Assembly (NCBI RefSeq): GCF_000003815.2
Contig: NC_049987.1
Coordinates: forward strand, 21,752,052-21,816,051
Direction of reading: 5' to 3'
Source of the DNA: Branchiostoma floridae
Lineage: Eukaryota; Chordata; Leptocardii; Amphioxiformes; Branchiostomatidae
DNA: 64,000 nt
The position numbers and the translations under genes were made by a program. Below are positions 1 through 61,407 of this stretch, in pieces. Under the pieces are notes generated by a model. It had not been told where the DNA came from and did not search any database. It saw nothing but the letters and a program-made list of their open reading frames with translations. The first letter of the stretch is position 1; every line of letters begins with the position of its first letter.

Positions 1-1408
1 ATCATATAAATTCTATATCTCTATGTTCCGTCCACACTGGTGATATAGTCCGGTCCGTTGGCATAGAGTTCTACGAAATGTGAACTAAGATGTCGCACAA
101 ACTCGTCACTTAAAATTTGTTACGACGCTGTAACTTTGAAAAGACCAGCCAACTTTAAAGTCTGTGCACAGAAAGATATTACATCAGTTGTAAATACATG
201 ATAATGATAAAGTTTATTGCAAATTCTTTCCCGTGGGCTATTTGCAGGTAACATGAGAGATTCAAATTGTGTAAAACAATATCACAAGTGTCTACTCTAG
301 TCTAAAAGTAGTAAAAAGCTAACTTTTTCGCAGACAATAGAAGACGAAATTTTAAGATTCCCACCTTTTCTATTATGTGTGGGTTTTGTGATGTTATAAT
401 CATGAATAACATTAACGATTTGACAAGCATGGAGACTTTAGCGAACATTCCCATAGCCGTAAAGCTTTGAGGCTTATTCACCGTCGAGGTTGTCGTTCGA
501 AGCAGATCAGTCTTTATTCGTCCTTCTCCACACATTTCATCAGCCGAACTCTCTCCGTGGTGATGTGGTTGTTACAATAGACCGGTTGTTACCACAAACA
601 GACAATGTTTATCTGTTTACGCTGATGTCACCACAAACAGACGATGTTTACATGTATCTGTTTACGCTGATGTCAATCACAAGCGTGGCGACGTGACGTC
701 TGACGGTCAATTCCGCATATGCGTCACTCTCCAAGCAGAAGTTCGGCTCCGACTGTTTTTTTTTAACGTGTTTTAGGCGCTTTGTACTGTTTTCTTTATG
801 TTGGCTGGAAGACATAGGGAAACAGTACAAAATAGACTGTCCGGTAAAAACGCCTAAAGCACGTAAAAAAAAACGGCCAGAGCCAAACCTCTGCCTGGAG
901 AAAGTACATTATATAATTATGTCACCTGTAGCTTAACTCAACTGCTTTGATTAGGCCACAATGACCTGATTATATGGATGACATCCGAGTGCGCATCAAT
1001 TTTCGTCCGCTTTAAGAAAACAAATTTGCGACCATACTGTGAATCGTACAGAGGAGGCGCAAAATGAACAAATCTATGCCAGAAATTGTAAAAAAAAAAA
1101 GAATATCATAAAGCGGATACTAATGTCAAAGTAGAAGATGTGATAAAAAAAGAATTCATCGTAGACTATACCATGTTCTTCGCGCTCAGCCATTTGGTCA
1201 TCCTTCCTGACAACTTACATTTCATATCAAATAATGAATGGAGGCAACTTAATTTTCGGTCCAATCTTTTTTTTTTTTGCAAACTCGCATCATCTATTGA
1301 GTGATTAGAGGATGTCATCTACATAATCAAATCAGCATGGCCTAAATCAGTCGTTTGAAGAATAGAGACATCAGTATTTTCTTTCTAACTTTTGTTGTTT
1401 CTACCCAG
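1..1408. other. Non-coding flank with a MITE and a short tandem repeat
   Basis: No coding exon could be supported here. A unit of about 39 bases (CACAAACAGAC-ATGTTTA) is repeated at roughly 588-672. A foldback element lies at about 733-897. If the lectin gene that follows has the same plan as its minus-strand copy, its signal-peptide and first CTLD exons should lie upstream, but neither is recognisable, so they are outside the window or lost. Confidence 0.5.
733..897. mobile_element. MITE, family A copy 1
   Basis: Imperfect terminal inverted repeats: AGCAGAAGTTCGGCTC on the left and AGCCAAACCTCTGC on the right. The interior is also a foldback, with GTACTGTTTTC facing AAACAGTAC. The same element occurs at about 48531-48702 and, longer, at 61408-61719. 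It has no coding capacity. Confidence 0.65.
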
Positions 1409-3874
1409 GTCCGAACTACCATTCATCTGTATGCACGCACCAAGTAAGTACCACCGGAACATGCAGGATACACAAAAAAACTATAAATTATTATATTTCT
1501 CCAATTTCTGCTATTTCCTAGCGACCTATGGAGCTTGTAGCCTGGGTACCATTCGGAAAGTAGTTCACTCCGGCGTTTGATTATTATACACAGTCGCTTC
1601 CAGCTCTGACATTTATTATACACTACATATAGTCGATCATAGTCGCTTCTCTGGTGGGTAGCATAAGCTAACATAGGAATCATTAGGAGCGACCATATAC
1701 TACCCGGATGGTACCCAGGCTATGGAGCCATACGGACCTCATACGTATACGGGCTTGAATATATACGCATTCAAGTCCGTGTGATGTCCGTATGAAAGTC
1801 GTAGCCTCTACTAGATTCTACAAGTCACTGGAAAAATATTAGGAATTGGACAAATGTAGACAGGGACATGCCAGCTGGTCGCCAACCATGATCCTCGGCC
1901 AGCTAACCCTTCTGATTTGGCATGTTATCATTGTTATGTGTCTATCTTTCTCCAATCTCCAGTAGCCATTGGATAGAAGCTGGTAGAGGCTATGAATTTA
2001 ATACGGACTTCATACGGATTTGAATGTATACGCACGTTTCTCCTGTACCTCCTCTTTAAAAAAATGGACCGTTCGGAACCAGTCCGTACCGGTTAGGAAC
2101 CAGTCCGTTCCGGTTTAAGGAACCAGTCCGAACCGGTTAGGAACCAGTCCGTACCGGTTTAAGGAACCAGTCCGAACCGGTTAGGAGCCAGTCCGAACCG
2201 GTTAGGAGCCAGTCCGAACCGGTTAGGAGCCAGTCCGTACCGGTTTAGGAACGGACAGTTCGAACATGTAAGAATAATACCATTATCAACTGTACTCTTG
2301 ACTGAACTACTGCAACCCATGGACCCTTTCTTTGATTTCATCATCCTTTCGACTACATGACATCACAAACTAACCACACAGGATATCAGACGGTATGATT
2401 CACAGGAGAAGGGCCGGCACGTTCCGACCAGGAGTTGGCTTGCGCGCCAATGTTGACATGGCGGCCGCAGGTCCGGGTAGGCTCGGGACATGCCGACGAT
2501 ACAGCCGCACCTGGTTGTCTGTTAGGCCTGGGTCCCAATTCCCAACCAGGGGCCCGGCCGGGTAGCTTTCGGACCCGTAAAATACGATAAGAAAAGCAAT
2601 AAAACACACAGAACGTAAAAAAAAAATTAGTCAGAACCATAGATTCTTTATATTCCTTGATAAGCACAATTTTTCGCTTCCGCAAGCATCCCGGGCCCGT
2701 TTCAGAAATGGGACCTAAGCCGGGCAGTATGTGGGAACGAAAAGTGCCATATAGAAGAGAGAAAAAAAACACGTAAAACATGACAAAAATATAATGATTA
2801 GTCTTGAGCATAGCCTGACTAAATCGCGCTCCTAGCGGCCGGCCTTACAGTTGCCACCATCATAACCCCAGCCAGTGAGAGATTGTGTAAAAACAGGCTA
2901 GTCATGAGCACCATTTTTTTCACGTTTCTTGATACAAATTGTATTTTTCATTATAAGCATTACTCGGGCGCAACGTTGTACTGCTTCTCTGACATAGGCC
3001 ATTAAACACATATAAAGAAAGTTTCAAGCTATCTAATGTAGAGGTCGATGCTAGATTTGATGACACAGTAGTGAATTCCATGAAGCGAAGAATGTCATCA
3101 AAGTCTCCCTTCTTTACCCGATCAAATATGGGCTGAGATTTGTAATGGTGCAAAAAAAGAAGAAAGCACCTCATCTTGGAGGTTGTCTATTTCTTGTTCT
3201 TTTCGGGGTCGGCACGCGTATTCGCACCGGTCGTCATTTACTTTTATCGCCATATCAGCTAGACATTGATTTCTATCGTTACGGATATCAGACGCAAAGC
3301 TGTTTGTCAGCTGTCAATCAAACATGTAGACTACACACCGGCGCAGTCTACACACAAGCACGGGGCGACTGGGGCATAGGTGATAGTCGGCGTATCGATC
3401 TGTACAGGTGTGACCGTGAGGTCGAATAGACGGAGTTTTATTGTGTGGTTAATGTTATTGGCTGTGTATAGTTATAGTCAATCTGACATCTAAACTACAC
3501 ACCGGCGGTTGTCTACACACAAGCATAGGGGGCCACAGGGCGGCCCCACAACGGCAGCGGCAGGGATTATAGGCCATATCGATCTGCAAAATGTGAACGT
3601 ACTTAAGGTCGAACGGACGAAGTTTTTATAGCGTTGTGTGTAGTTTTCGTGTAGCCTCTCTATGCTGTATTATCGATTCTTGTATTGTATTGTATTATTT
3701 TATTTGGCAGCTCCTTTCTTGTACCGACGTAGTTTCATTGCGTGTATGCAGTACATATATGTATTTCGTATCACATGGTTCTCAAAGCAATCCGGTAATA
3801 CATCATGTGGTATGTTATTTATGCCCCCCCCCCCCAAAAAAAACACGCACACACACACATAAACACATACACGT

Positions 3875-3935
<61 letters not shown>

Positions 3936-6462
3936 GGAAACATTCCTGTCCCTGGTGCTGAACACCCCTTCCTCAACACAGGTAGGCAGACATCCCTGTC
4001 CTTAGTGCTGAACAACATCCACACACACTGGTCACAATGGACCTCGGAGCTCAGAGCTATTGGCCTGGTCAGTTTGGCAGCGCTTGAACCCCACTGTTAC
4101 ACACCGAGAGGTTCCCCTACGGTATCCGTCAGTCCACTGGGACAAATTTGTGGCTTCGGGGCCAAGCCGGGGTACACCCCTATGGGTTCTGGTGCAAATA
4201 TAGCCTGGAATCCAACCGTATTATAGCTCCCTAGTCTCTTCTGTCCTCTCCATATGATATTTGCGGGCTAAAGAGGACAAAATAGACTCGGGAGCTATAA
4301 TACAGTTAGATACCAGGCTAGTGCAAATGTGGCCAAAGTATTATCCCCCTGCGGCTATTCCGTTATTTTGATGTCTGCGATTGTTCATTCCTTGACAAAG
4401 ACTGTTGCTGTTCAGTCGAAAATTTGGGTGAGTCCAATTTTTGTGTTGGAAATTGCATTCTAACTACATTGTAGTTCAAAATGTCTAGATAATGTATAGA
4501 TGTGATGGTTGTCCTAACCTGAATGACATGCTGAATTTCCAGCCTGCGACGATCCGCCTTTCATGAACAACACCGTCAGGTTCAACTGCGAGCCCCCCTA
4601 CGACCAGCAGGAGGTCTGCGTCTACTCATGCATCACGCCGGGGTTCCACTTGTTCGAGGGGACCAACTCCTCCTCCACGGCCACGTGTTTGGACGGGAAC
4701 TGGCACGGGCCCTTCATGTCATGCAACTGTAACTTTCAAGCATCAATGCCATCATCCTACGCAGGGACATCTAACAGCCAAACTGCCTGTCTGGATGTGC
4801 CCTGCTTTTTTTTCTATTTTGCTTTTGGACAGACGAGGACAATGTGGCACTGCACTCAAGTTTTAGTAACTTATATTAACATTGCCACATACAAGGTACA
4901 GACAGAAGGTACCCATTTTTACACCTGAGTAAAGTGAAGAAGGTCGTGTAAAGTGCCTTTCGCAAGGGCACAACGTCGGGGCGGGGCACGGCGGGGATCG
5001 AACTCAGAACCTCTTGGTTCCGAGCCGAACGCTCTACCAGTTACGCCACGCCCGACGCCAACCTGCTCTTTCAACCGTGACCCTTAGTTCCTGACCGCCC
5101 TGCTTATTAGTATTAATGTATTCCACAGGAACTAAGGGTGACGGTTGAAAGAGCAGGGTACATCCAGACAAGCACTTTGGCTGTTAGATGTCCCTGCGTA
5201 GGAGGATGCTTTTAAGTAGATGCAGGGCCTGGATAAAGATGCTATTTAAAAAAAAACCCTTGCTTTATTATTACTACCAACGTTGATGAAGGGTAGACAC
5301 CCAGTTTAGGCTTACGGTCACATTTTCAACCCTGGCAGCTTTCGGGGGCGAAAAGAATGACATAAAAGACATTAAAATACACAAAATGTCAAAATAAGAT
5401 TCATCGGCATGATTTCTGTATATCTATAGGTATACATTTTAATTTTTCGCTTCTTAAAAGATCCCGACCGCGCCCCGATTTGGAAATATGACCGATGCGT
5501 TACACGGCGCCACGTGTTTTACGTGTGTGTTTTGTGACGTTTTTATACAACATTTTAGTGGGTCGTGTTTTTAGCTCTTCTCCGGCAGTTCATGTGACGA
5601 AATGAACTGAAAAAAGAGCAAAACACCACAAAAACACACGTAAAACTAGCCTTAACTCTGCTTGGATATGACTTCAAGGGTACATCCCACTTCTTTTGTG
5701 CCCATGTAGATCTGCATTTCGCAAACCCTAACTTGATCCATATAAACTTATTTTCAGTAACGTAAAAATGCTATGGTGCAGGCTGGGTGGCAGCCTATTT
5801 AACTACCGGGCCTCCCATACTCGCTCGTGTAGGAAGCCCGGTACACTAACTAGGCTGACACCCAGGCTAGCTCTGGAGTACAACAGCAGCTGGATGTTAG
5901 ATATATAAACTGACATACATATTTGTCGTATTGGCTCTCGCCAGCATAAGCATATCATCTTTAGATCAGACTTACTTTCTAAGAGCTGCTGGATCCCGGT
6001 CCCAGATCTTACTCCAACCATTGCTTAATCTATGTAACGCTAGTTCACCTTTATCCGCGGGGTATCCTATATCCGTTTTTATATCAAACTGCAATATATT
6101 CGATATATTGCAGTTTAAAACCACCGTCCGTCAACATGACATCCCTAAGTAACAACGGATATAGGCTAATCCTCGGATAAAGGTGAACTAGCGTCACCCT
6201 AAGCGTGTGATACACAATTATAATACATTCTTCTCCCCCAGCGGATTGCCCGGAGCCAATTGTGAACCCGGGGGTCGCCATGATGGGACCAAGCTGCGAA
6301 GCACCCTACATCACCGGAGACATGTGCTTCTTCGAATGCCTAGATGAGGAAGGACTGAACATCGGCGACCACGACATGTCGTGTTTTGATGGCGTATGGA
6401 TCCATGCAGACACAGATACGGAAGGGACCCCCCTCATCTGTAAGGGGCACTATCGCCAGTAA
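1409..6462 (+). CDS. C-type lectin/sushi secreted protein, 3' part (CTLD end plus two CCP domains)
   Basis: Three exons are joined by matching splice phases. Exon 1409-1443 encodes the end of a C-type lectin domain (SELPFICMHAP), with a CCCAG acceptor and GTAAGT donor. Exon 4543-4728 encodes a sushi/CCP domain beginning TCDDPPF with four Cys, a Trp near the end and phase 1 on both sides, as is usual for sushi exons. Exon 6242-6462 encodes a second sushi domain (CPEPIVNPGV ... CFDGVWIH) and ends at TAA 6460-6462. Such proteins are secreted or surface recognition molecules. The 5' exons (signal peptide and N-terminal CTLD) are not visible in 1-1408, so this copy may be truncated or begin before the window. 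A collinear copy lies on the minus strand at 34211-36587, with a plausible signal-peptide exon near 41.6 kb. Exon calls are firm; whether this copy is functional is unknown. Confidence 0.72.
1541..1727. mobile_element. MITE, family C (AGCCTGGGTACCAT termini)
   Basis: Starts AGCCTGGGTACCATTC and ends GGATGGTACCCAGGCT as a terminal inverted repeat. The same termini occur at 34731-35026 and 52545-52796, and in a shorter related form at about 5780-5871. Confidence 0.7.
2079..2252. repeat. 21-22 bp minisatellite (GGAACCAGTCCGAACCGGTT)
   Basis: About eight tandem copies of a GGAACCAGTCCG(A/T)ACCGGTTA unit, some with an extra T. Each unit is itself partly palindromic (AACCGGTT). It lies in the large intron between the lectin end exon and sushi 1. 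Confidence 0.85.
2524..2716. mobile_element. MITE, family B copy
   Basis: Foldback of about 190 bp with outer TTAGGCCTGGGTCCCAATT and AATGGGACCTAAGCC, and inner GGCCCGGCCGGG / CCCGGGCCC. Related copies lie at about 5305-5500, 8968-9172, 16763-16940, 22040-22135 and 36905-37025, making this the most frequent family in the window. Confidence 0.65.
3830..3933. repeat. (CA)n microsatellite
   Basis: Poly-C then poly-A tracts run into about 85 bases of alternating AC with a few ACGC and ACAT interruptions. Open frames across it (THTHTH / VCVCVC) are repeat artefacts. Confidence 0.95.
4202..4320. mobile_element. Foldback element ending in CCAGGCTA
   Basis: TAGCCTGGAATCCAACCGTATTATAGCTCCC on the left is inverted as GGGAGCTATAATACAGTTAGATACCAGGCTA on the right. 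A similar hairpin class occurs at about 49229-49318 and 53140-53236. Confidence 0.65.
4744..5215. mobile_element. Nested foldback elements with an internal SINE
   Basis: Outer inverted repeat: left arm about 4757-4803 (CCTACGCAGGGACATCTAACAG then CTGGATGTGCCCTGC), right arm about 5155-5208 (GCAGGGTACATCCAG then CTGTTAGATGTCCCTGCG). Inside lies a second hairpin at about 5063-5157 (CCTGCTCTTTCAACCGTGACCCTTAG against its inverse) and a minus-strand tRNA-derived SINE. This indicates at least two successive insertions. Confidence 0.65.
4906..5062 (-). mobile_element. tRNA-derived SINE
   Basis: Read on the minus strand: a tRNA-like head with A-box-like GTGGCGTAACTGGTAGAGC and B-box GAGTTCGATCCC, then a tail with GTTGTGCCCTTGCGAAAGGC, ACTTTACACGAC and CAGGTGTAAAAATGGGTACC. 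The same tail is seen at about 40372-40450, and partial forms at 36360-36500 and 56605-56720. The head lacks a matching acceptor stem, so it is not called as a tRNA gene. Confidence 0.75.
5305..5500. mobile_element. MITE, family B copy
   Basis: GGCTTACGGTCACATTTTC opens the element and GATTTGGAAATATGACC closes it. The interior holds the GCGAAAAGAATGACATAAAAGAC and TATACATTTTAATTTTTCGC segments typical of the family. Confidence 0.55.
6028..6196. mobile_element. MITE, family D copy 1
   Basis: Terminal inverted repeat AACGCTAGTTCACCTTTATCCG / CGGATAAAGGTGAACTAGCGT, with the inner palindrome TGCAATATATTCGATATATTGCA. A second, more degraded copy lies at about 6473-6640. The two bracket the second sushi exon. 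Confidence 0.75.
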
Positions 6463-6472
6463 ACCTAGTTAG

Positions 6473-6640
6473 CCTTTATGCGGGTGTAACCTTTATCCGT
6501 TGCGTTAAAAACAGGATACTATCAAACTGCACTGCAGTATTTCGAAAATATTGCAATTTAAAATCGCCAACCGTCGACTTGATGTCCCTAAGTACCCTTT
6601 AGAAAACGGACATAGGTTACCCCACTGATTAAGGTTAACC
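6473..6640. mobile_element. MITE, family D copy 2
   Basis: Shares with copy 1 the segments TAACCTTTATCCG, ATCAAACTGCA, ATTGCA-TTTAAAA, CGTC-A-TTGATGTCCCTAAGTA and the right end GGTTAACCAGCGTTA. It begins just after the stop codon of the + lectin/sushi gene, so its transcript end may lie within the element. Confidence 0.6.
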
Positions 6641-6650
6641 AGCGTTATCT

Positions 6651-6756
6651 CCTTTCTTTCTTTCTTTCTTTCTTTCTTTCATTCTTCTTTCTTTCCGCTT
6701 TCTTTCTTTCTTTCTTTCTGTCTTTCTTTCTTTCTGTCTTTCTTTCTTTCTTTTCT
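6651..6756. repeat. (TTTC)n microsatellite
   Basis: Polypyrimidine run of TTTC units with a few CATTC and TGTC interruptions. The Lys/Arg/Glu-rich minus-strand frame across it is an artefact. Confidence 0.95.
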
Positions 6757-7377
6757 TCAGTCTGCCTAACCTCAGACTGAGGACGAAGCGTTTTTTTGTC
6801 ATTTGATAGTAGGGCAATGCGGCTTCGCTTCGGGTTGCATATCTAGACAAGCACACCAGGTTACCTCTACTCTTCCTGATAAGAACTTGCAATTGGTTTC
6901 TTTACGTGCGGAGGTTTAGCACTTGAGGCTAATGCACGAAGTTCCCTCATATACGGGGACGCCTGCTTTACGTCACCATCAGAAATGACGAATACAACAC
7001 GTCATTTTGGATGTTAACGTGAGGCTGTATGTCTATATATTAACATCATATTGTATATACAATCACAGGTTGGCCAAGCTAGAATCAACCGTGCACGTGC
7101 TGGTGACATTCTAGAAGTAATGATGGATTTTCCGTACCTGGCACATACTAGACAGATATCCTGCAGGTTATATTTTGAAAAGGGGGGGTGGGCGTTCACG
7201 GGTAGTTTACAGGCTATTTTCTGGCATGGCCCCTACGTGGCCCCGTGGGACGCCCTACGGTTCCCGGGCTATTTTGGGGGCAAGGCTGGGTCCCTGAATT
7301 TTTTTTTTCAAACTCGGAGTTAAAAATAATCTCGAGACCCAGCAAAATAATGCACGTCGTGACCTAACCGTGAAAAC

Positions 7378-7757
7378 GCAGACTAAAATGAGTCCCCTGT
7401 TTTAGGCCCTTATCCACCACATACTAGAAAGAGACCCAGACTAAAAGTGAGTCCCATGTTTCAGGTCCTTATCCACCTCATACTAGAGATCCAGACTAAA
7501 ACTGAGTCCCCTGTTTCAGGCCCTTATCCACCTCATACTAGAGATCCAGACTAAAACTGAATCCCCTGTTTCAGGCCCTTATCCACCGCATACTAGATGG
7601 AGACCCAGACTAAAACTGAGTTCCCTGTTTCAGGTCCTTATACATGTACACCTCATACTAGAGATCCAGACTAAAACTGAGTCCCCTGTTTCAGGTCATT
7701 ATCCACCTCGTACTAGATGGAGAACCAGACTAAAAATGAGTCTCCTGTTTCAGGTGA
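7378..7757. repeat. About 60-bp tandem repeat (6-7 copies)
   Basis: Unit of the form CCAGACTAAAAATGAGTCCC ... TTTCAGGCCCTTATCCACCTCATACTAGA, varying slightly in length. Two inverted copies lie at about 33880-33990, the matching place in the minus-strand duplicate. Confidence 0.9.
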
Positions 7758-7878
7758 ATAGTGCGTGAGAAGACCAGCCGGATCAGCACACCTGGTGAGA
7801 CTGTCGGAATCTCCTCTCCGTGTAGAACAGCGGTACGAGACCAACACCGCCTGAACCGTCACACTGGCGATCTGACAT

Positions 7879-8604
7879 GGAGTAAACTTAGTCTCAGAAC
7901 ATGGAGAAAACTTAGTCTCAGAACATGGAGAAAACTTAGTCTCAGAACATGGAGAAAACTTAGTCTCAGAACATGGAGAAAACTTAGACTCAGAACATGG
8001 AGAAAACTTAGTCTCAGAACATGGAGAAAACTTAGTCTCAGAACATGGAGAAAACTTACTAGTAGTCTCAGAACATGGAGAAAACTTACTAGTAGTCTCA
8101 GAACATGGAGAAAACTTACTAGTAGTTTCAGAACATGGAGAAAACTTAGTCTCAGAACATGGAGAAAACTTAGTCTCAGAACATGGAGAAAACTTAGTCT
8201 CAGAACATGGAGAAAACTTAGTCTCAGAACATGGAGAAAACTTAGTCTCAGAACATGGAGAAAACTTAGTCTCAGTACATGGAGAAAACTTAGTCTCAGA
8301 ACATGGAGAAACTTAGTCTCAGAACATGGAGAAAACTTAGTCTCAGAACATGGAGAAAACTTAGTCTCAGAACATGGAGAAAACTTAGTCTCAGAACATG
8401 GAGAAAACTTAGTCTCAGAACATGGAGAAAACTTAGTCTCAGAACATGGAGAAAACTTAGTCTCAGAACATGGAGAAAACTTAGTCTCAGAACATGGAGA
8501 AAACTTAGTCTCAGAACATGGAGAAAACTTAGTCTCAGAACATGGAGAAAACTTAGTCTCAGAACATGGAGAAAACTTAGTCTCAGAACATGGAGAAACT
8601 TAGT
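7879..8604. repeat. 24-bp minisatellite, about 30 copies
   Basis: Unit GGAGAAAACTTAGTCTCAGA + ACAT, 24 bases. Three adjacent units carry an extra ACTAGT-type insertion at about 8058-8130, and two copies have lost one A of the AAAA. Because 24 is a multiple of three, long frames run through it (SLRTWRKL or VSEHGENL per unit). The inverted duplicate at about 33690-33757 has only two or three units. I treat it as non-coding. Confidence 0.93.
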
Positions 8605-8967
8605 CTCAACTCATGGATGTACTGATGGATTTAATACCCGTGCAGTCCTTCTGAAGTTGTAGAAACGTTTTGTTGTCCAAATGCACAACAAAAATGACCA
8701 AGATGGTTAACATTGCTCACAGATGTAATGTGAGGTCAAGCCTTAGACTGGCAAATTAGTCATTAAACTGCCAGGGAATGAATCCGGTGTCTGTTATTGT
8801 ATACGTAATTGTTCACACGTAAACTTCAAGCAGATGTTGGGAGTCTAAACCGTTAGGTTATCCTAGCTGCTCATTTCTGTGATCGTGAAAATCCGCCCCT
8901 CAAGCTAGGAAAACGTGACGATTCAGCCTTCCATACATCTGCTTGGATATAAGTACACGCGCTTCTT

Positions 8968-9172
8968 AGGCTAACGTCGCATTGCCAAACAGGGACCCGG
9001 ACGGGCTGTTTGTGGAAACGAAAATAGAAATGTATACATATACACAAATATACACAAATAATGCCCATGACTGTTCTCTTTACGTTTTGTATAGTTTGGC
9101 GTCTTTTATACCATACATTTCGTTCCCGAAAGCTGCCCGGCCGGGCCCCGGTTTCGAAATGTGACGTAGGCC
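8968..9172. mobile_element. MITE, family B copy
   Basis: Left end TTAGGCTAACGTCGCATT, right end AAATGTGACGTAGGCCTAA. The interior foldback has ACCCGGACGGGC against GCCCGGCCGGGC, and GTGGAAACGAAAATAG. It is the best-preserved copy of the family. Confidence 0.75.
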
Positions 9173-9377
9173 TAACACACACGTATTGAGTAAGGTTGTA
9201 TTCAGGCATGGACTTTACGGATAAATAATTATAAGGCACGACAAAGAACATTCGACGTTTCAATCACACTTTGCCAATCTTCTCAAAACCCTGTTTTGTC
9301 TGCAGAATGCAGATATTACGGCCCACTGGTCCTGAATATAGAGTGTACATATTTAGCCCAACCCCAATTTTGTTAGG

Positions 9378-9628
9378 CCCCCTTTCCACTAGACGGCGAT
9401 CGCGCTGCGCTCTCACTGCGACCTAAATAGGATATGTGTAATCTTCACTTTCACACTTGGTACATCATACAAAACGTATCGTACAAAGTGTGACTGAGAA
9501 GACAACAAAACACACAAGGTGTAAAAAGATTCGTTTATTTTCTATAGAATTCGTTGAGCGATCTGTCAAATTTGAGGTCGCAGAGAGAGCGCGGAGAGAG
9601 TGCCGTCCTAGTGGAAAGGGGGTATTAG
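9378..9628. mobile_element. hAT-like MITE (CCCTTTCCACTAG termini)
   Basis: CCCCCTTTCCACTAGACGGC at the left and GCCGTCCTAGTGGAAAGGGGG at the right. The arms continue as GCGCTCTCACTGCGACCT against AGGTCGCAGAGAGAGCGC. The interior has no transposase. Confidence 0.75.
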
Positions 9629-9975
9629 CAACAGGACTGACGTATGCGTCATTAAACAACTTTGCTCAAATGCGATCCTTCGGAGAGAGAGGGCCGGCAT
9701 GTTTGTCATTTGTCATGGTTCAGAGTTACTGACATTGGCTAACTGCAAACAAAAATTGGTTTTCCCGAGAAGTATCGTACTCTGGGACTACTCATTGCCA
9801 CCAAGTACTGCAGGGAAATCCTCATTGGACAGCTTCAAATAATGCTTACAGTATACAGCTAGTTGTACAAAGTAAAGGCTATGTGTGACAGGTCTTTCAG
9901 TGGAATATAACCAGCTGCTGCCGTGCCGAGCGCGTGCGTGCAAACCCGGTGTATTACGACGAAGGGCGGTTAAAC

Positions 9976-10101
9976 TGGCTATAGTATAGAGATACACGTA
10001 CAGAAGCTGATGTGTCATACCAAAGTGCTGTTTTTTATACTGGCTATAGAGATACACGTACAGAAGCTGATATGCCATACCAAAGTGCTGTTTTTTATTT
10101 A
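9976..10101. repeat. Tandem duplication of about 63 bp
   Basis: CTGGCTATA-GAGATACACG ... CATACCAAAGTGCTGTTTTT appears twice in succession, followed by degraded thirds around GATACAGATACGG and CAGATATAGATAG. Confidence 0.85.
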
Positions 10102-10343
10102 CCAGCGATACCGATACAGATACAGATACGGAAGCAGGTGTTTTACGCCGAAGCACGGTAGTAATACCAGCTATGCAGATATAGATAGAGATACAAATAA
10201 TGTAATACTACATGTACACAATAACGTTAGCCTCTACCGGGCTCTCTGGATCGTTGGTTAAATAGTAGAACATTGACAAGTAGAGGGAATAGTGTGCTAG
10301 GGGAGTCGGTCAGCCAGAGGACCCAAGGATCCCTAGCACACCA

Positions 10344-10500
10344 TTGCAGTAGAAGCCGCTTAATTGCACTGCCTATTTGCCAGTGAATTCCGTGCAATTA
10401 TCCAGCTGGACTGCACCAGTTTGGGATTTCTTGCAGTTAACAGAAGTGTGCGTTAATCCGTTGTGCAATTATCTGGCTTAAACTGTACCTCTAGATCTAT
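10344..10500. mobile_element. Tigger/pogo-like MITE remnant
   Basis: Starts CAGTAGAAGCCGCTTAATTG and carries GTGCAATTATC motifs. Closely related to 21716-21870 (CAGTAGAAGCTGCTTAATTG ... TTCTATTGTACTG) and to an inverted end at about 51035-51062. CAGTnGAAnC termini are typical of Tigger-type elements; family naming is by resemblance. Confidence 0.55.
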
Positions 10501-11029
10501 AATTTCTACTATTGACCAACGACCTGCGGAGCCTGGTAGAGGCTACTGTATAAAAGTCTCGATGCCTGAACTCCGGTCTTGGTGACATGCCCGACCTGTA
10601 GGTCACTTTCTACCAAACGAGCAACTATTGGCTGTTGGTCATCACGGAAGAATAGTTGTCATGATCAATGAATGAATGAATGTATGAGGAGGCTATTTGA
10701 TCACCACAACACCCCGGAACGCAAATAAGTCAGGAAGTTACCGTGAGGGGTACAGCCCACAGACTCATTCAAGTCGCAGCGAGGACACAACCGACTACAG
10801 ATCCTGTAAAGATTACAGGTAAGAGCGGTGACTCTATCTTTTTAAGGAATCTTGAGACGTTATAAAAAGATCTCAAGATCCTCATGAAAAATTTCAATAT
10901 TGACTCGAAACGTCTCAAGATCTACCGCAAAGTCTCAAGATTTTTTGATTTTCCTACCCGCGGCGCAGTGAGACTGCCACCGTACGGCTCTAGCTCTGCG
11001 GAGGTTACTTTTGGAAAATCATATTTCGG

Positions 11030-11260
11030 AACAGATCCTATGTGCTTTCAGTTCCTATGTGCCATGTTCCCGTGTGTCCTAGCCGCGGTGTGTGCCGCCC
11101 TGTTCGGCCCTAGTGAGGTCTTAAGTTTCGAGGAAAAGAAATAATATTTCGGAACAGATCTAAGTTTCTATTATCCAAAATTCTTAAATACTCTCCTTTC
11201 TGTTCACAGTTCCTATGTGCCATGTTCCTGTGTGTCCTAGTTGCGGTGAGACTCTGCCAC
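11030..11260 (+). repeat. Two upstream tandem copies of the esterase signal-peptide exon start
   Basis: ATGTTCC-GTGTGTCCTAG occurs at 11064, 11222 and 11383, a period of about 160 bases. Each is preceded by a CAG and by AACAGATC/AAGATT-type flanks. The copy at 11064 still reads MFPCVLAAVCAALFGPSEV; the one at 11222 drifts after the first codons (MFLCVLVAVR). Only the third runs on into the esterase, so the first two are duplicated, probably non-functional leaders. Confidence 0.8.
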
Positions 11261-11382
11261 CCTGTTCGGTTCCTGTGAAAGTCTTGATAATCATTTTCAA
11301 GGAAAAGAAATCAGATTTTGGGAAAGATTTTTACTACCCAAGATTCTTACCCTGATTTCTGTCCACAGTTCCATCGCCTACC

Positions 11383-17300: not shown

Positions 17301-17396
17301 GCGACGCTCTGGGGACAGAGTCTGGCGGTGGCACTCCTGGTGAACCTCATCAAGGACATCATCAGTTTCATCACCACTATCTTTGTCGTACTCTGA
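11383..17396 (+). CDS. Secreted type-B esterase of the cholinesterase/carboxylesterase family (585 aa, five exons)
   Basis: Exons 11383-11618, 12192-12362, 13557-14600, 15098-15258 and 17251-17396 join in phase to 1758 nt ending in TGA. The product is an alpha/beta-hydrolase that should hydrolyse esters outside the cell. Residues 1-20 are a signal peptide ([20 protein letters not shown]). Oxyanion motif YGGGF is in exon 2, the nucleophile in FGESAGG is Ser213, the acid is Glu330 (NANEG) and the base His444 ([10 protein letters not shown]). Before [10 protein letters not shown], the position of the choline-binding Trp of acetylcholinesterases appears to be Leu, so general carboxylesterase activity is more likely than true cholinesterase. 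The C-terminus after QQCQ is hydrophobic (residues about 557-585), suggesting a GPI signal or membrane tail. Exon 1 uses a GTCGGT donor followed directly by a CAGTAA repeat. A partial inverted copy lies at 31774-32479. Confidence 0.92.
11628..11688. repeat. (TAACAG)n microsatellite at the esterase exon 1 donor
   Basis: About ten units of GTAACA start ten bases after the exon 1 border. Each unit offers a GTAACA hexamer resembling a weak 5' splice site, but using one breaks the reading frame into exon 2, whereas the upstream GTCGGT keeps it. Confidence 0.9.
12600..13350 (+). mobile_element. LINE (non-LTR retrotransposon) 3' fragment in esterase intron 2
   Basis: An open stretch ending at TGA 13214-13216 resembles the C-terminal end of a non-LTR retrotransposon ORF2. 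It has a basic region ([13 protein letters not shown], then RDQRFCPFC) and a C-x2-C-x7-H-x4-C zinc knuckle (CPFC ... RHFVMDC) of the zf-RVT type found after the reverse transcriptase. No reverse transcriptase motifs precede it, so it is a 5'-truncated copy. AATAAA occurs at about 13318. It has the same orientation as the host gene. The exact ends are uncertain. Confidence 0.7.
15375..16570. repeat. Complex degenerate tandem repeats in esterase intron 4
   Basis: Two repeat types are interleaved. A 26-31 bp unit around CAACG(C/G/T)TTTACG(C/T)TAAATTC occurs about four times at 15388-15510 and, as TTACG-TTACGTGAAATTTTTAGGC-type units, again at 16340-16562. Between them is a longer unit of about 170-190 bp with AATTTTGAAATCTTGACCCT ... 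GGCAAA, seen near 15556, 15744, 15930, 16084 and 16275. Confidence 0.75.
16763..16940. mobile_element. MITE, family B copy
   Basis: Opens TTAGGCCTACGTCACATTTGCAAACCTGGTCCCGG and contains GAACGAAAAGTATGATACG-AAGACACC and TATACATTTCTATTTTTCG. The right terminus is degraded. Confidence 0.6.
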
Positions 17397-26760: not shown

Positions 26761-26798
26761 CCATTTCTTTTCAAGGTTTGAGTAGGAGATGTGCCAGC

Positions 26799-29700
26799 AT
26801 GTCTGAGAGTGACGAGGAAGTGCCTCAGCTGCCAGCAGACACTCTCGCAGCACTGCAGGAGTTCTACACCAACCAGGCTGCCCGAGAGAGGGAGCTGCAG
26901 GAGGCCATGCAGCGGCAGGATGTCGGGAAGGTGGAACTGGAGGAAGACTGGGTAGGGAAACTAGTACAGTTCCTTGGAGATGGTCACTGGTACACTTGCT
27001 TGCGTTGTCTGCACCAGTACTAGTACATGCCATGCCTTTAGCGCATATAGCCTAGTATATGCCAGCCTGTTAGTCTCTGTTGGTTGCTTCCAGGGCCCAG
27101 GAAGTGACAGAGAGTGTACAAAACCAAATAAATGTTACCCAAGCTTGGTCTAGCCTGATTAAATCTCGCTTATAGCAGCCCGCCAAACATCCGCCGGAGG
27201 GGCCAGTTAGAGCCCTGGACAGCGGAGTTTGTGTTACACAGACTAAGCTTGGTCTGGGTCTCAGCAACTTTACTAGTAGGTCTTTTGGATTCTTTTGGAC
27301 TTTTTTTTTTTGGTTGTAAAAAATTGTGTTTTAAGTCCATATATTTTTGTGAACACTGGTCTCTTTATGGGTGGCCATTACTTTGCAGGGCTCGAAATAC
27401 CACATGCATATGCAAGTTTGTGCAAGTAAAATTGGTGTGGTGCAAGTAAGTTTAGACCAAACTTGCACCAGTGCAAGTTACTTTTGTCCTCTAATACCTG
27501 ACATTAGAAAAAGCTTACACACACCGAGAATATTGTCTGTCATTGAAAGGTAAAAGAAAATAACACTGAATAAAAAAAAAAAGCCTAAATTTGTTATTTC
27601 TAAATTTGGTTAGACATCCAGGTAAACTATTTTTTTTAGACAAATCCATCTCTACAATGCTAATGATTCCTATGGTGCTGTCTTACCTTGATTTGCATAT
27701 GAGTTACATTTGCATACTAATTAGTGACTTCAATATGTTCAACTGGTTTTTCCAGTTATATGTATTGTATTGAGTTGTTCTACCACTTCATTCTGGAGAT
27801 GCTTAAACTAGTTACTGTGATGGATGTCACTCGAAGAGTCCAGAAGAAATCTATGGATCTTATCGAGTTGTAGACATTGAATTGTCTTCAATTGAGGCTA
27901 AATTCACAGTTTTTATGAAACAGTTTGTACAATTTCAAACCAAAAATAAAATACGCTACGGAAAAATGTTCAAATATCCAAACATGTGGTCTTTACAGGT
28001 ATGTATCCCCATTTACTCACGTACATTTGCAAATTTTCAGAAGAGGAGATAAGGGGTTAACAGTTCACTATTTTGGGTTGTGCAAGTAAGTTTCTTTTGG
28101 TGCAAGTTACCTTTGGCTTAACTTGCACAGGTGCAAGTTGACTGAAAAGTGTATTTCGAGCCCTGAACTTTGTGATAGTCACCGCCCAGTTTGGCAACCT
28201 AGTGTGGCTCTACTAGCTAGTAACGTTATACCACCACACAGCTTAATGAATTAAGTACTAGTAGAATAAAGACTCAGTCAAGTTTTACCATGTAGAACAC
28301 TACATCAACTTTTCCCTTGCTCCCTGCAGAACCTGAGCCAGTTCTGGTACTCGGATCACACAGCTGATGCTCTGACCAGAGAGGTGCTAGATGTAACTGG
28401 TCCAAGTGGCAGGTGAGAGGCTTTTTTCATTATAGAAACTTTGAAAAATTGGCTTCTCACAGAACCACATAACATTACTTTCTTATCTTTGAATGCATTA
28501 GAAAAGTTTAAACAAATGTAATTCCTATACATTGCTTGGGCTTGATGATAAGTGCAAAGTGTATGTGAGATACTGACCACTAGCTGCTGGTACCCGAACA
28601 GTATGAGAGGTCTAATGAAGTCATGTGGTCTGGGGTAGTCATGTAGGGTTAAGTCTGTCACCTTCCTCAGGTCAATACTGACCCATACTACTTTGCACTG
28701 CAGCAAGCATCACTGCAGTGTGAAGAATGTGGTCTCAAACATGACTGAGCCTGTATCAGAGCTGTTTCCAGGACCTTTCAAATTTACTTGTTAGTATGAA
28801 ACTGTTGAAAATGTACTTTGGTAAGTTTAAATTAAAATGACATCTTTAACCAAGAAAATTAACAACATGGGCTCCCAATGAATGAGTGAGATGCAAAAAG
28901 AATTTAAGCTGGAAACAGTCCTGGTCTGTTAATCTCCAAGCAGATCCTACGGTGCCATAAGATAGTATCAAAGCTGGCCAAGGAGTGTAGCCGGCTAAGG
29001 GAGTCAAACGGGCACCTACGGGAAGTTTGATACTATACATTACGCACCGTGGATCTGGTTCGAGATTACTGGTCTGTATTCTCTCTCATCATGGTTCTTT
29101 ACTGGAGTGGATTTTCCATTGTCATTATCACCCGCAGCGTTGCCTGTTTGAGCTGCCCCACGCTGTACAAGCGACTCCGGGAGGTGAAACCCGACACCAG
29201 CAGGGCAGTTCTGCTGGAGTACGACCAGCGCTTCAACATCTACGGGGAAGACTTCGTGTTCTACGACTTCAACACTCCGCTCAAGTTCTCCCAGCCTCTG
29301 CAGGAAAACTCCTTTGACATTGTTGTCGCAGACCCGCCGTACTTGTCGGACGATTGTCTGACTAAAACTGCAATAACAGTCAAGTTCCTGACAAAGGGGA
29401 AGATCATGCTGTGTACAGGTCAGTGCCAAGATGTTTTTTTAGTCAATAGAGTCATTTCCAGATTTGGCGGTCATATTGGATTTTCTGGAGTCATGTACGA
29501 GCCATGTACAAGGCTGGACACAAGAGTTCCTAGTTGATAACATGTTTGTATTAGAGTATAAGTAGTCCATCTTCAGTGGTATTCTGCCCCTCCAACTTGA
29601 AATACTGCGGAATATGTGTCTGTCATGTGCATGACCCTGGATGACCCAGAAAAATCCAAAATAGCCGCTGTATCATTCCTCATCTGGAAATGACTCTATT

Positions 29701-30769: not shown

Positions 30770-31773
30770 CAGTATGTCTGTAGATAGGAAGTAATAATGA
30801 TCAGGATTCTATTACCGTTGAGTCTAGGCTACAAGAATTCAATTCTTTGGTGTGTTTTAGTCTCTCCCCCTTTTTTATTTGTAATTTAAACAAGTTAAGA
30901 TACATTATTTTTGTTAACCTACAAAGAAGGGAAACATACGTTTTAGGTCAGTCTTTTATATCTTCTTCAAATGATGAAAAACATCAATATTTTGATTTAT
31001 ATAGCTTGGAAAACTTGAAAGCCATCAGGCTTCTGTTGACATTCTTCTATGGAATGATAAATCTTATAATGAAAGTCAGATGACAGGTACTGTGTGATCA
31101 AATTATCTGACTGGCATCATTTACTGCAGAATAAAACCTGCAACATCTTTGACAAAATTCATCAAAAGGGCCACCACCAGACTTTGTCCCCAAAGTGACG
31201 GAGCTCCAGACCCCATAACTGGAGGACACTGGCTGGGTGGCACTGACTCTGAAAAACACCATAAACATGCCATGAATTAAGAGCTGCAGGATGATAAACA
31301 GAATGGGCTCACAGAATGCAGACAGTGGAGAAAGATGAAGAAAGACTCAATGCAGCTGCAGGACTTTTCAAAGACTGCAGATGCAGAAAACAGAGAATGA
31401 TGATGAAGCATTAGGTCATGGGTTCTAATCCCAGCCAGGTCATTCTAATTCTTTAAAAGTTTTGGAACAAACTGCATCTCTGCTTAGCACTCAGCAGTTA
31501 TGAGAAAGGGTATGGGAGTTGAACACACACCACTGCCAGTGGACTTGTCCCCTGCCGTAGTAATGGCCCCGTGTGAAGAAGACTAACCTTCAACACTAGC
31601 TTTGACATGTATACGGACAAATAACATTGAAATCCACTTTTTGGTGTTGAAATATCTTAATAATTATATGTCGTGTGTTTGATTGTCGGCCATGCCGGTG
31701 GATACTGTCTTGGCAGGTAGTTACGATTTTGCTCCTAAAATATCTGCTTGTAGAAGTTCATGTGCCCACCCAC

Positions 31774-32479
<706 letters not shown>

Positions 32480-32579
32480 NNNNNNNNNNNNNNNNNNNNN
32501 NNNNNNNNNNNNNNNNNNNNNNNNNNNNNNNNNNNNNNNNNNNNNNNNNNNNNNNNNNNNNNNNNNNNNNNNNNNNNNN
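32480..32579. other. Assembly gap 2 (100 N)
   Basis: Exactly 100 N, between the truncated esterase copy and the 61-bp satellite. The missing 5' part of the esterase copy could lie in it. Confidence 0.99.
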
Positions 32580-33345
32580 CCTCGCCCTAAGGTTGGCCTG
32601 TAGATTAGCTTGTAGGTCAGGTTTTCATTCGACCTCACCCTAAAATTGGCCTGTAGGTTAGCTTGTAGGTCAGCCTTTCGACCTGTAGTTCGACCTCGCC
32701 CTAAGAGTGGCCTGTAGATTAGCTTGTCGGTCAGCCTTTTGACCTGTAGTTCGACCTCACCCTAAGGTTGGCCTGTAGATTAGCTTGTAGGTCAGCCTTT
32801 TGACCTGTAGTTCGACCTCGCCCTAAGAGTGGTCTGTAGATTAGCTTGTCGGTCAGCCTTTTGACCTGTAGTTCGACCTCACCCTAAGGATGGCCTGTAG
32901 ATTAGCTTGTAGGTCAGCCTTTCGACCTGCAGTTTGACCTCACCCTAAGGATGGCCTGTAGATTAGCTTGTCGGTCAGCCTTTTGACCTGTAGTTCGACC
33001 TCGCCCTAAGAGTGGTCTGTAGATTAGCTTGTCGGTCAGCCTTTTGACCTGTAGTTCGACCTCACCCTAAGGTTGGCCTGTAGATTAGCTTGTAGGTCAG
33101 CCTTTTGACCTGCAGTTCGACCTCACCCTAAGGATGGCCTTTAGATTAGCTTGTCGGTCAGCCTTTTGACCTGTAGTTCGACCTCACCCTAAGGTCGGCC
33201 TGTAGATTAGCTTGTAGGTCAGCCTTTTGACCTGCAGTTCGACCTCACCCTAAGGATGGCCTGTAGATTAGCTTGTCGGTCAGCCTTTCGACCCGTAGTT
33301 CGACCTCGCCCTAAGGTTTGCCCATAAATTAGCTTGTAGGTCAGC
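32580..33345. repeat. 61-bp satellite, about 12 copies, with alternating monomers
   Basis: Unit CGACCTC(A/G)CCCTAAG then TGGCCTGTAGATTAGCTTG then T(A/C)GGTCAGCCTTTTGACC, spaced 61 bases. Many neighbouring monomers alternate TTGTAGGTC and TTGTCGGTC, implying a 122-bp dimer as the amplifying unit. It occupies the place between esterase and lectin repeats in the minus-strand duplicate; no such array is seen in the + copy. Confidence 0.93.
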
Positions 33346-33689
33346 CTTTAGTTCATTCTGTACATATTTGTAACAATGACAGATTGGAAGCACTAATTTT
33401 GCCAAAAGACACTTAATGAATAGGTCTGCAACTTTAAGGCTGGTAATTCACTTTATTCCATTGATGGTGATCATTTTTGATAATTACAGGCCTTTCCACA
33501 ACTTTTCCAGGATGACAGCACTACTGGTGCTAAATGTACCAGTGCATCCATCAGTTGAGTCTAACATTTCTACATGTTCTGAGCACCAACGTGGCACTTA
33601 ATGCCTTTCATTTTAACCATAAACGTGTCCACGTGTCTTCAGAATTACTCATTTTACCAGTATGTAATCTATGAGTACATCCGTGGGTA

Positions 33690-33757
33690 GAGACTAAGTT
33701 TTCTCCATGTTCTGAGACTAAGTTTCTCCATGTTCTGAGACTAAGTTTTCTCCATTT
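33690..33757. repeat. Short inverted counterpart of the 24-bp minisatellite
   Basis: Two to three units of AAGTTT-CTCCATGTTCTGAGACT, reverse complement of the 24-bp unit at 7879-8604. Flanking unique sequence matches too: CATCCGTGGGTAGAGACTAAG here and CTTAGTCTCAACTCATGGATG at 8600. Confidence 0.9.
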
Positions 33758-33879
33758 TTTGGTCGCCGGTGTGACAGTTCGGGTGCGTGGGTCTCGTGTC
33801 GCTGTTCTACACGGGAGAGGAGATTCCGACAATCCCGGCGGGTGTGCTGATCCAGCTGGTCTTCTCATGCACTATTCAC

Positions 33880-33990
33880 CTGAAACAGGGGACTCAGTTT
33901 TAGTCTGGATCTCTGTCTAGTATGTGGTGGATAAGGACCTGAAACAAGCGACTCATTTTTAGTATGGGTCTCTGTCTAGTATGTAGCATC
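33880..33990. repeat. Inverted counterpart of the 60-bp tandem repeat (two copies)
   Basis: CCTGAAACA-G-GACTCA-TTTTAGT-TGG-TCTCTGTCTAGTATGT occurs twice and is the reverse complement of the unit at 7378-7757. Confidence 0.88.
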
Positions 33991-34210
33991 AACTTTCGTC
34001 TATTTTCCAAAAAAGCTTTCTACCTGTAAATCACACAAAACATCTGAAAAATGAGAAATATATGCCGTAAATTGACTTAAAAAATCGAAAACTGCTAATA
34101 ACGTCTTAGAATGCCAAAGTCACTTCCAAAGTCAAAGAAGAAGTGGTGTGTGTGTGTATATGTGTGTGTGGTATCATGACTTGCGTGTTATGAAAGTTGA
34201 ACAAGCTTAT

Positions 34211-37200
34211 TTAAAAAAGATGATTTTCGTCGCTAGATCTTTTCTCAAACCAATAGCAGTATCTAACGAAATGTTCCTTACAGACGAGGGGGTCCCCGGG
34301 CAGGTCTGTGGCCGCATGGATCCATCGCCCATCAATACACGACATGTCGTGGTCACCACTGACAAGATCATACCCGTCCATGCATTCAAAGGAGCACATG
34401 TCCCCGGTGATGTAGGGTTCTTCGCAGTTATCGCCTAAAGTGGTGACTCCCGGGTTCAGGGGTGGATCCGGGCAGTTCGCTGGGAAGAGACATCACACAT
34501 CTATTACATGACGTTATCTCAGGGAGACTTATTGACTGGTTGCCCGAAGGAAGGCGCAGAGTGGGTCGACCAAACATAACGTTAAAGACAACGATAGAAA
34601 GAGACATTGGACTTCAATGTCTGCCATGAATGACAGATCAAACTGGAAAAACTTAATGTATTGTACATCACAAGTGTAAACCGGATATATGATGATGATG
34701 ATGATGAAAACTTACATAAATCATTCTAGCCTGGGTACCATACCATCGTGGCGCTCGAGTTGCTCTTCGGCGGTGTAGGGGTGGCCGCCCGTGCAGTTAA
34801 TTGGTACAGGCCGGGGGACTTCTTACGGGGTTAGGTTAATTTCGTTGCGCCCCGACGCTGGCGGCGTAAACTCCAAAGGCCGGCTTCAAGCTCTGGCGGC
34901 CAAATCTCAAAGGGCAGCTAATCAGACAGGCTGACGTACAGGCTGACAGAAGCAGGTCGGTGCCTAAGCACTGGGCCGGGTAAAGCACCACAAAGCCGAC
35001 CAGCGGAGAATGGTACCCAGGCTAAACTCATTCATCATTCAAGTCCATTTCCGGTGGAACAGGCTTTTGTCAAATGTATGTAAATGCTTAAAACGAGCGA
35101 TGCGTACAATTGCAGACCATGAAGGGGCCGTGCCACTTCCCATCCAGACAGGTGGCGGTAGCGGAGGAGACGGTTCCCTCGAACAGGTGGAACCCCGGCC
35201 CGCATATGTAACGGCAGACCTCCTGCTGGTCGTAGGGGGGCTCACATCCGGAGATGACGGTGTTGTTCATCACTGGCGGCTCGCCGCAGGCTGGGAAATT
35301 ACACAGTAATGAATAGTTGAGGCTATCCCACAAATTATGTGTAGCGTCATATAAAGAGGAAAAGCTTTCCCTCATGCACGATAAGTCCAACTGATGATGG
35401 TGATTATATATATGGCTGACTTGGTCCCATTGTCTGATGGTGCCATGGAGCCAAAAGGTAAGGAGTTTTAGTTTGAGTCTATTCAGATCCAAAATTAGAT
35501 TAGACATTAAGTCCAACTGGCGACCGTTAGCTGACATCTTCGATAGCTAATAGACGTCAAATGTGAACTATCCCACTTCTGACACCATGTTGTGGACTTC
35601 AGAGGTTTTCATATTCTTGATCCAAATGGGGAATTACCTCTCTATCAGCTTTTACTCCATGATTGAACAGATGAATGTCCAAGCTATAACTATAAATCTG
35701 TGTAAGGGTAAGTTAGGTTTCAAAGATGTCAAATGGTGATGGTCTAGTACTGAACATTTTCGATTTCATATAAACCATTACAACAGAGAGATCAACATCA
35801 ACCTTCATTATATTGCACAGTGCGTGTCTGCGGGGGTCATTGAAATCATCGCTGTTGGGCTGAACAGTGTTTATTTACATGTTGACTCAACCGTTGTTTA
35901 GTAACTTGTTTGATTGACACATTACAAATAGCTCAGGCGACTGATATCCGTAACGTTTGTGATCACCGCTGCTGCTATCATAACAGAGACACGGATGGGG
36001 CCGGGGCCGCATGCCCTCACCAACCCGGACACGCTGGCGTCATGTCAACACCGGCGGCATAAACTCTCTTTCTAAGAAGTTGGATCTAGTCCGGTTTTTG
36101 TCGCGTGCAGAATGATGAAATCGAGGGTTACGGTTGGTGCTTGAAATCACATTGTCAGACCGCTAGAGTCGTCATGGCAGAAGTCATTTCGCTACACGAC
36201 AGAGGTCGTTTCGCTACATGGGAAAAGTCGTAATTTGCTACACGGTACAAGTCGTTACGCTACATTTGAGTGTTATTTCTCTATATAGGCTCATAGCATT
36301 AAGAAATCATCTTCCTTTGCGTTCACAAATGTATTTACAGACGTCAGTGATCTTTGTGGCGTCTTGTGTGGCGTAAATGGTAGACTATTGAACTCGTAAT
36401 CTAGAGGCCCCGGGTTGATACTCGCCATGCCCCCGGCGTTGTGCCACTTTACACGAATCTCCCACTTGAGGATGGAGTGACGCCCACTAAGTCCTACAGT
36501 AACTATGATGCAATAATTTACATGCTTTACAACATACTCTAGTGTTACTTACTTGGTGCATGCAGACAGATGAATGGCAGCTCGGTGCTGAGTAGGAACA
36601 ACGAGAGAGAAATAAGATATGAGTTTATTTGCTAGAATGAAGTCAACACGCAATAAACTGGCCATGGGTTACTCTGTCAACATTTCTGATGGAATTTAGA
36701 TGCACATGAACAGAGCTAGAGAGGATCGTGCAAACCCCTTAGCAGGATTGCAGATGGGCTTTGTTTGGCTTATAGAGGCCTCCTCTATAAACTAGTTAGG
36801 GAAGATGCATGACTACAAGAAACTGGGTTCAAGGAGAATGGATATGCAATAAGAAAACTGCACATAATACGCCAACGTTCAACTAGTAAGCCTGCTAAGC
36901 CAGTTAGGCTAAGGCCTACGTTACATTTCCTACCCAGAGTCCGGCCGGTTTGCTGTCTTATATTGTACTTTTCGTTCCCAAAACTGGCCGACGGGGCCCT
37001 TTGTGTAAATGTGACGTTAGCCTAAAGACGCTAGCATGTTTCCCCTGTTCAAAGTGTCGGCCAGCAATGTCATGTGCTTTTTACCATAAGCTGGCGGTCT
37101 TACATAAATATGAGATGTAACATCATCGTATGAAGATACTAGTACTTTTACAGGACTTGTCTCTACCCAACGGTACGTGGGCGTTTTATACTCCTGTTGG

Positions 37201-41623: not shown

Positions 41624-41631
41624 CGCTTCTG

Positions 41632-45286: not shown

Positions 45287-45310
45287 CTCTATCCAGGTTC
45301 GATGTCTACT

Positions 45311-61336: not shown

Positions 61337-61407
61337 TGTGCTTGATTCTGGACAGCTATATCTTCAATTGAAGGCTCTTATAGTACAGTAAAGATACTAG
61401 TACTCTC

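Follow-up and report, generated by a model that had tools for sequence, protein, structure and literature searches.

Two inverted copies of a gene block, here termed arms A and B, lie in a 64,000-bp window of the Branchiostoma floridae genome (C9:21752052-21816051). Each arm carries a lectin-sushi gene, with exons for a signal peptide, parts of a C-type-lectin-like domain (CTLD) and two sushi domains, and after it an esterase of the cholinesterase-like type, and the arms are separated by a 13.8-kb loop with two unrelated genes, MATCAP and a methyltransferase of the EEF1AKMT1 type. The arrangement is very probably the product of an old DNA-level inverted duplication of the lectin-sushi and esterase block around the two loop genes, which has since decayed. 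Coordinates are given as window positions, with negative values for sequence upstream of the window (Table 1). The comparison was extended by flanks of 40 kb on the upstream and 30 kb on the downstream side, and the genome searched comprised 513,431,437 bases in 431 contigs. A literature search covering titles and abstract openings found no publication describing the locus.

Table 1. Features of the two inverted arms and of the loop between them
Feature	Position	Strand	Remarks
Arm A inside window	1..17356	+	Inverted collinear chain; extends upstream to ~-5478 (C9:21,746,573)
Arm A last CTLD-like exon (ELPFICMHAP)	1409..1443	+	Edges inferred from AG/GT
Arm A sushi 1 exon	4543..4728	+	Pfam Sushi E 3e-06; 80% to arm B; edges inferred
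Arm A sushi 2 exon	6242..6439	+	76% to arm B; edges inferred
Arm A minisatellite segment, apparently noncoding	7376..8707	+	~6.5 copies of 55-60-bp unit, ~30 copies of 24-bp unit
Arm A cholinesterase-like carboxylesterase gene	11224..17396	+	COesterase; AChE/BChE chains; C1 layout
MATCAP exons	19466..22442	-	Both sides of 20209-20308 gap; KIAA0895-like chain 7z5g
Open frame with methyltransferase domain	29031..29534	+	PF10237, E 1.8e-34; named EEF1AKMT1-type in the sequence-only reading
Arm B, shorter inverted copy	31146..41922	-	Inverted collinear chain
Arm B esterase 3' half (exon 3 3' part, exon 4, exon 5)	31146..32479	-	Cut by gap; in-frame TAG in exon 3
Assembly gap of 100 N at exon 3 of the arm B esterase	32480..32579		Starts three bases past last aligned exon 3 base
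61-bp tandem array at gap edge	32580..33349		Without counterpart in arm A
Arm B counterpart of minisatellite segment	33459..33984	-	~2 copies of 55-60-bp unit, 2.8 copies of 24-bp unit
Arm B sushi 2 exon	34282..34479	-	Pfam Sushi E 3.3e-08; edges inferred
Arm B sushi 1 exon	35108..35290	-	Pfam Sushi E 3.2e-09; edges inferred
Arm B last CTLD-like exon (ELPFICLHAP)	36553..36587	-	Edges inferred
Arm B first CTLD-like exon	39607..39762	-	96% to arm A -2675..-2520; 34-bp minisatellite next, 39359-39619
Arm B signal-peptide exon and upstream sequence, start of CTLD-sushi gene (ATG 41623)	41547..41922	-	64% to arm A -5478..-5095

Self-comparison showed all six pairs of landmarks first noticed in a sequence-only reading to be inverted and collinear between the arms, and exact string positions and alignments bore out their shared relative order. 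The window truncates arm A, and further inverted partners were found in the upstream flank, matching 41.9-38.6 kb. Arm A thus extends from ~-5.5 to 17.4 kb and arm B from 41.9 to 31.1 kb, which corrects the earlier estimates of arm length, ~14 kb and 5 kb, to ~22.8 kb and 10.8 kb, respectively. When -6.5 to 17.7 kb (arm A) was compared with 30.9 to 42.6 kb (arm B), the highest-scoring inverted chain comprised 15 anchors and 2,892 alignment columns and scored 2,177 bits, while direct-strand comparison of the arms gave a single match of 51 bits. The best of sixteen control comparisons, made with eight overlapping and non-independent pairs of same-sized flank segments on two strands, some containing a 2,068-N gap, reached 173 bits. 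The chain includes a 73% identical stretch (-1814..-1576 / 38821-38559) and esterase exon 5 (17232-17356 / 31267-31146, 66%), neither of which is among the six landmarks; the exon 5 anchor is weak (58 bits) as well as short, yet a paralogous gene on C1 contains a partner for it. Five of the fifteen anchors are weak and noncoding, with 40-63 bits each (2445-2524, 509-612, 3252-3352, 16625-16699 and -124..-39), and may be repeats or chance matches not to be relied on, the first of them adjoining a repeat also present on C1. On these alignments, the case for an inverted duplication is carried by the other ten.

The introns of the two arms are mostly unalignable, with 2.9 kb aligned within arms of 22.8 and 10.8 kb, and the identity of most aligned pieces is between 64 and 87%, the exceptions being esterase exon 4 (97%) and the first CTLD-like exon (96%). 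A recent segmental duplication is conventionally recognised by at least 1 kb at an identity of at least 90%. The longest single block of the inverted chain spans 398 columns, and with most pieces at the identities given above, a recent segmental duplication was rejected. The anti-diagonal across introns and intergenic parts, by which the sequence-only reading proposed to check the duplication, is missing over most intron sequence and present across one noncoding segment, several hundred bases long. Since the exon-intron layout, this noncoding segment and the minisatellites are common to both arms, a copy made at the DNA level, rather than a retrocopy, is supported.

In the lectin-sushi gene, the signal-peptide exons of both arms encode a product starting MSRLAVGV..., and the pair formed by the first CTLD-like exon and an adjoining 34-bp minisatellite (-2694..-2307 / 39780-39397) is 86% identical. 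Reading frames are open in both arms for all five lectin-gene exons compared. Sushi domains (PF00084) were matched by three of the four sushi exons, namely both copies of sushi 1 and the arm B copy of sushi 2, and arm A sushi 2 alone had no Pfam match at 1e-3. The CTLD label rests on a reading of the sequence. C-type lectins are marked by a first part with paired cysteines, a central W-G/WND motif and a final PFIC motif; the first and last parts were read in both arms, and a motif scan of both arms found no central CTLD exons. No C-type-lectin Pfam model matched fragments from the arms, and the joined arm B fragments gave only a sub-threshold match to another family (PF05966; E 0.011, 15.5 bits vs 22.5). 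Considering the missing central exons and Pfam match, lectin activity of the predicted product is uncertain. The 34-bp minisatellite occurs in both arms (39359-39619 and, in the upstream flank, -2532..-1358) and is longer in arm A. It starts where the CTLD-like exon ends, and its unit resembles this exon end with the 5' splice site (TTCTACAGAACAGTGTGAGT), such that the units carry donor- and acceptor-like sequence.

Several of the shared pieces are specific to the two arms. The first CTLD-like exon and sushi 1 each have two matches in the whole assembly, both of which are the arms themselves, sushi 1 having been queried alone as an intron-containing query (4400-6500) was swamped by a transposon. 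A third copy of the lectin-gene exons was not found in the assembly with these two exons as queries, sushi 2 and the signal-peptide exon not having been queried alone. The minisatellite segment contains a 60-bp repeat (7379-7755 in arm A, 33878-33984 in arm B) and a 24-bp repeat (7875-8608 and 33690-33755, respectively), and all seventeen matches of its core (7650-7960) in the assembly fall within the two arms, which rules out dispersed repeats as the source of these landmarks. No second full match to the methyltransferase frame of the loop was found in the assembly. With these pieces confined to the two arms and the loop frame single-copy, it appears that the block of lectin-sushi gene and esterase underwent one local duplication.

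The arm A esterase has exons at approximately 11356-11620, 12166-12371, 13540-14600, 15098-15258 and 17250-17396, the layout being taken from the C1 paralogue. Exon 3 (13531-14601) matches COesterase (PF00135; E 1.5e-95), and comparison with PDB chains gave AChE and BChE matches to 5e-100, with AChE as the best, so that the product is predicted to be a cholinesterase-like carboxylesterase. In the region encoding the signal peptide of exon 1 (11036-11426), there are seemingly two or three decayed tandem copies ~158 bp apart. Only the 3' half of the gene occurs in arm B, with the 3' part of exon 3 (14358-14647 / 32476-32194) 81% identical and exon 4 (15091-15267 / 31941-31765) 97% identical to arm A. 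The 5' half of the arm B esterase was not found elsewhere in the assembly, the closest other copy being that on C1 (84-87%). Where arm A and the C1 gene encode tryptophan, exon 3 of arm B carries a stop codon (TGG to TAG). Nonsynonymous divergence (dN) of the esterase is 0.14 between the arms, 0.14 between arm A and C1 and 0.17 between arm B and C1; as these values give no clear sign of faster amino-acid replacement in arm B, the stop may have arisen recently, may be polymorphic or may reflect an error in the sequence. The C1 paralogue (C1:11,572,711-11,578,285) has the same exon order as arm A, with 84% identity over exon 3; the arm B copy differs in being cut by a gap and in carrying the stop. 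More distant relatives also exist. No match to the lectin-sushi exons occurs in the 50 kb around the C1 esterase.

Synonymous divergence (dS) was estimated by Nei-Gojobori counting with Jukes-Cantor correction, and is between 0.3 and 0.6 for five of the seven coding pieces compared between the arms. Values in the lectin gene are 0.30 for the signal peptide, 0.52 for the CTLD end (8 sites only), 0.46 for sushi 1 and 0.61 for sushi 2, with 0.068 for the first CTLD-like exon; those of the esterase are 0.38 for the 3' part of exon 3 and 0.12 for exon 4. The range of 0.3-0.6 is roughly ten times the reported heterozygosity of amphioxus, given as 3.2-4.2% in PMC12500494, which is a genome-wide and not a synonymous-site figure. 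Divergence of this order points to an old duplication. For the 3' part of esterase exon 3, dS is 0.39 between arm A and C1 and 0.41 between arm B and C1 (whole exon 3 A-C1, 0.33), and as this approximates the A-B value the split of the arms and that from C1 would be about equally old.

An inverted pair in a scaffolded assembly could also arise if scaffolding had joined, head to head, both haplotypes of a single locus or contigs of other origin. The 12.2-kb contig 20309-32479, which holds the loop side of arm B, has a gap of exactly 100 N at either end (20209-20308 and 32480-32579), and the B. floridae assembly described in PMC7269912 was built from Sanger shotgun reads, its two divergent haplotypes being assembled separately before merging by HaploMerger2 and scaffolding on chromatin contacts with HiRise. 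The position 32479, taken as the start of the inverted esterase in the sequence-only reading, is in fact the end of this contig. However, the dS of five of seven pieces is far above the allelic level and the introns are mostly unalignable, the methyltransferase frame is single-copy, and sequence on both sides of the right gap follows the order of arm A. Furthermore, the left gap is crossed by MATCAP. Translations of five of its exons, concatenated in the order of the minus strand, match the chain 7z5g (E 3.1e-25), with residues ~52-240 covered by the exons above the gap and 259-323 by the exon below, on the same strand and in order, although the Pfam MATCAP model scored 22.4 bits, under its cut-off of 27 bits. 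Since MATCAP runs in order across this gap, the orientation of the contig bearing the inverted esterase is fixed relative to arm A. An artefact of scaffolding is thus very unlikely, and a haplotype misjoin in particular was set aside on the grounds of divergence and MATCAP continuity. The gap within MATCAP may conceal a short coding piece, with ~16-20 residues lacking between the flanking matches.

The arms differ in length throughout, with arm A being longer in all eight intervals between chosen anchors (19,918 vs 8,681 bp in total). The largest deficit of arm B (982 vs 5,650 bp) falls in the interval from the minisatellite segment to esterase exon 3; it includes the unsized 100-N gap and may therefore be unassembled sequence, which makes the earlier suggestion that one arm lost, or the other gained, much sequence too simple. 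From the features seen, the sources of unequal length would be young transposons and minisatellite growth in arm A, as in the 24-bp array, together with the gap in exon 3 of arm B. A transposon fragment in an arm A esterase intron (12704-13337) is 98-99% identical to the five other copies compared, on other chromosomes (40 of 854 candidates scored), which suggests a recent insertion. Its open frame had no Pfam match and has a CPFC-type motif that we take to be retrotransposon-like. A second arm A element (4750-5208) has terminal inverted repeats of ~61 bp, and its inner part (4806-5060) matches copies elsewhere in the genome at 96-97% identity (40 of 8,423 candidates scored). Transposons are not confined to arm A, as a stretch of arm B at ~37858-38147 belongs to an old repeat family (of 2775 candidates 40 were scored, with identities of 70-87%); young copies were seen in arm A alone, though the search covered only some introns. 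The 61-bp array at the gap edge of arm B had no other match in the assembly, in a search that skips simple repeats.

The sequence-only reading had further proposed that the middle could flip by recombination between the arms. Inverted arms do surround the 13.8-kb loop, and amphioxus is said in PMC12500494 to have elevated rates of inversion and translocation. However, the longest identical inverted tracts between the arms are 98, 66 and 55 bp, in place of the few hundred identical bases expected of inverted repeats competent for non-allelic homologous recombination. The minimal segment for efficient recombination is quoted in PMC3966225 as >200 bp for mouse cells and as 337-456 bp for humans, while the repeats of the human inversion HsInv0209 are described in PMC3961182 as including a 782-bp stretch at 99.9% identity within 7-kb repeats at 94%. 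With 98 bp against the >200 bp needed, recombination between the arms should be rare, and analysis of the locus sequence gave no sign that it has happened. Flipping of the loop is accordingly left unsupported and, judging by these tracts and the mostly unaligned introns, appears unlikely; that the arms act as recombination-competent repeats flipping the 17-31 kb interval in the population is extremely improbable.

Three points weigh against a single old duplication of the block. Two pieces, the first CTLD-like exon at a dS of 0.07 and esterase exon 4 at 0.12, show far less divergence than one old event would predict; the right-hand join at 32480-32579 has no spanning gene and would be placed by collinearity with arm A; and local misjoins are conceivable, should the assembly be that of the merged haplotypes outlined in PMC7269912. 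The first of these reflects a mosaic, in which these two exons and the minisatellite segment show much greater similarity between the arms than the remainder does. Short-tract ectopic gene conversion between the arms, acting in addition to the duplication and not as an alternative to it, may have kept such patches alike, a possibility to which we give less than even chances. Consistent with this, the observed heterogeneity of dS among six exons was reached in 22 of 5000 permutations (0 of 2000 with groups chosen after seeing the data), and the noncoding stretch 7660-7943, at 87% identity, is less diverged than the synonymous sites of the sushi exons. In addition, the patches of 156-286 bp are near in size to the non-crossover tracts of B. 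floridae, given as predominantly <200 bp in PMC12500494. However, the dS of esterase exon 4 is 0.155 for both A-C1 and B-C1 vs 0.119 for A-B, so that its low divergence is not arm-specific. Conversion as the sole cause of its 97% identity was not upheld, with the C1 copy nearly as close synonymously. The identity of the CTLD-like exon also ends at the upstream exon edge, and no third copy was found in the assembly by which this exon could be polarised. That the decayed arms still swap exon-sized tracts, keeping the lectin-like exon and the noncoding segment young, is more doubtful again; such tracts would perhaps be seeded at the shared minisatellites, and the locus would then be a palindrome in decay in which concerted evolution persists in islands.

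The inverted duplication can be pictured as starting from an ancestral block, in which a gene for a signal peptide, a partial C-type-lectin-like domain and two sushi domains preceded an esterase of the cholinesterase-like type, and which would have been copied at the DNA level, with the copy placed in inverse orientation beyond MATCAP and the EEF1AKMT1-type gene. We infer both the age and a single event, as opposed to a tandem duplication followed by inversion. Afterwards most intron sequence would have diverged beyond alignment, while transposons and further minisatellite copies accumulated in arm A and an in-frame stop came to interrupt the esterase of arm B. The block inverted around the two loop genes is supported as first described, in distinction from its flipping and from a simple account of loss or gain.

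The locus is a real and specific old inverted duplication, of a known kind. Human inversion loci, as outlined in PMC3961182, likewise have two inverted gene-bearing copies around an unrelated segment; unlike these, the arms described here are 64-87% identical in most aligned pieces, with mostly unaligned introns and a longest identical tract of 98 bp. The long near-perfect inverted repeats of Caenorhabditis elegans also contain oppositely oriented paralogous genes, but according to PMC1803023 their complete intergenic sequence is near-perfect and thought to be actively maintained, whereas here only patches are highly similar. Most likely the arrangement does nothing as a structure today. Its present content is apparently two paralogous lectin-like genes and two esterases, one seemingly intact in arm A and one seemingly broken in arm B. 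It provides a clear case, open to checking, in which a lectin-sushi gene and the neighbouring esterase were duplicated long ago in inverse orientation around a loop of unrelated genes. Here exon-level reading detects what a DNA dot-plot nearly misses, and an assembly gap can pass for biological loss. Were conversion to have occurred, the locus would be an amphioxus test case for inverted paralogues staying alike in short islands; if not, it represents ordinary gene-family history.

Among the other features of the window, no RNA families were found at gathering scores. An 85-bp tandem array (63439-64000) reaches the window end and is followed by the 2,068-N gap. Self-complementary elements at 43587-44033 and 48524-48704, the second of which is related to 726-901 and 61401-61490, are probably small DNA transposons, their class being a guess. 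Outside arm B, an STN1 C-terminal domain and a leucine-rich repeat (LRR) gene occur at 55718-56701 and 44189-45328, respectively, both on the minus strand.

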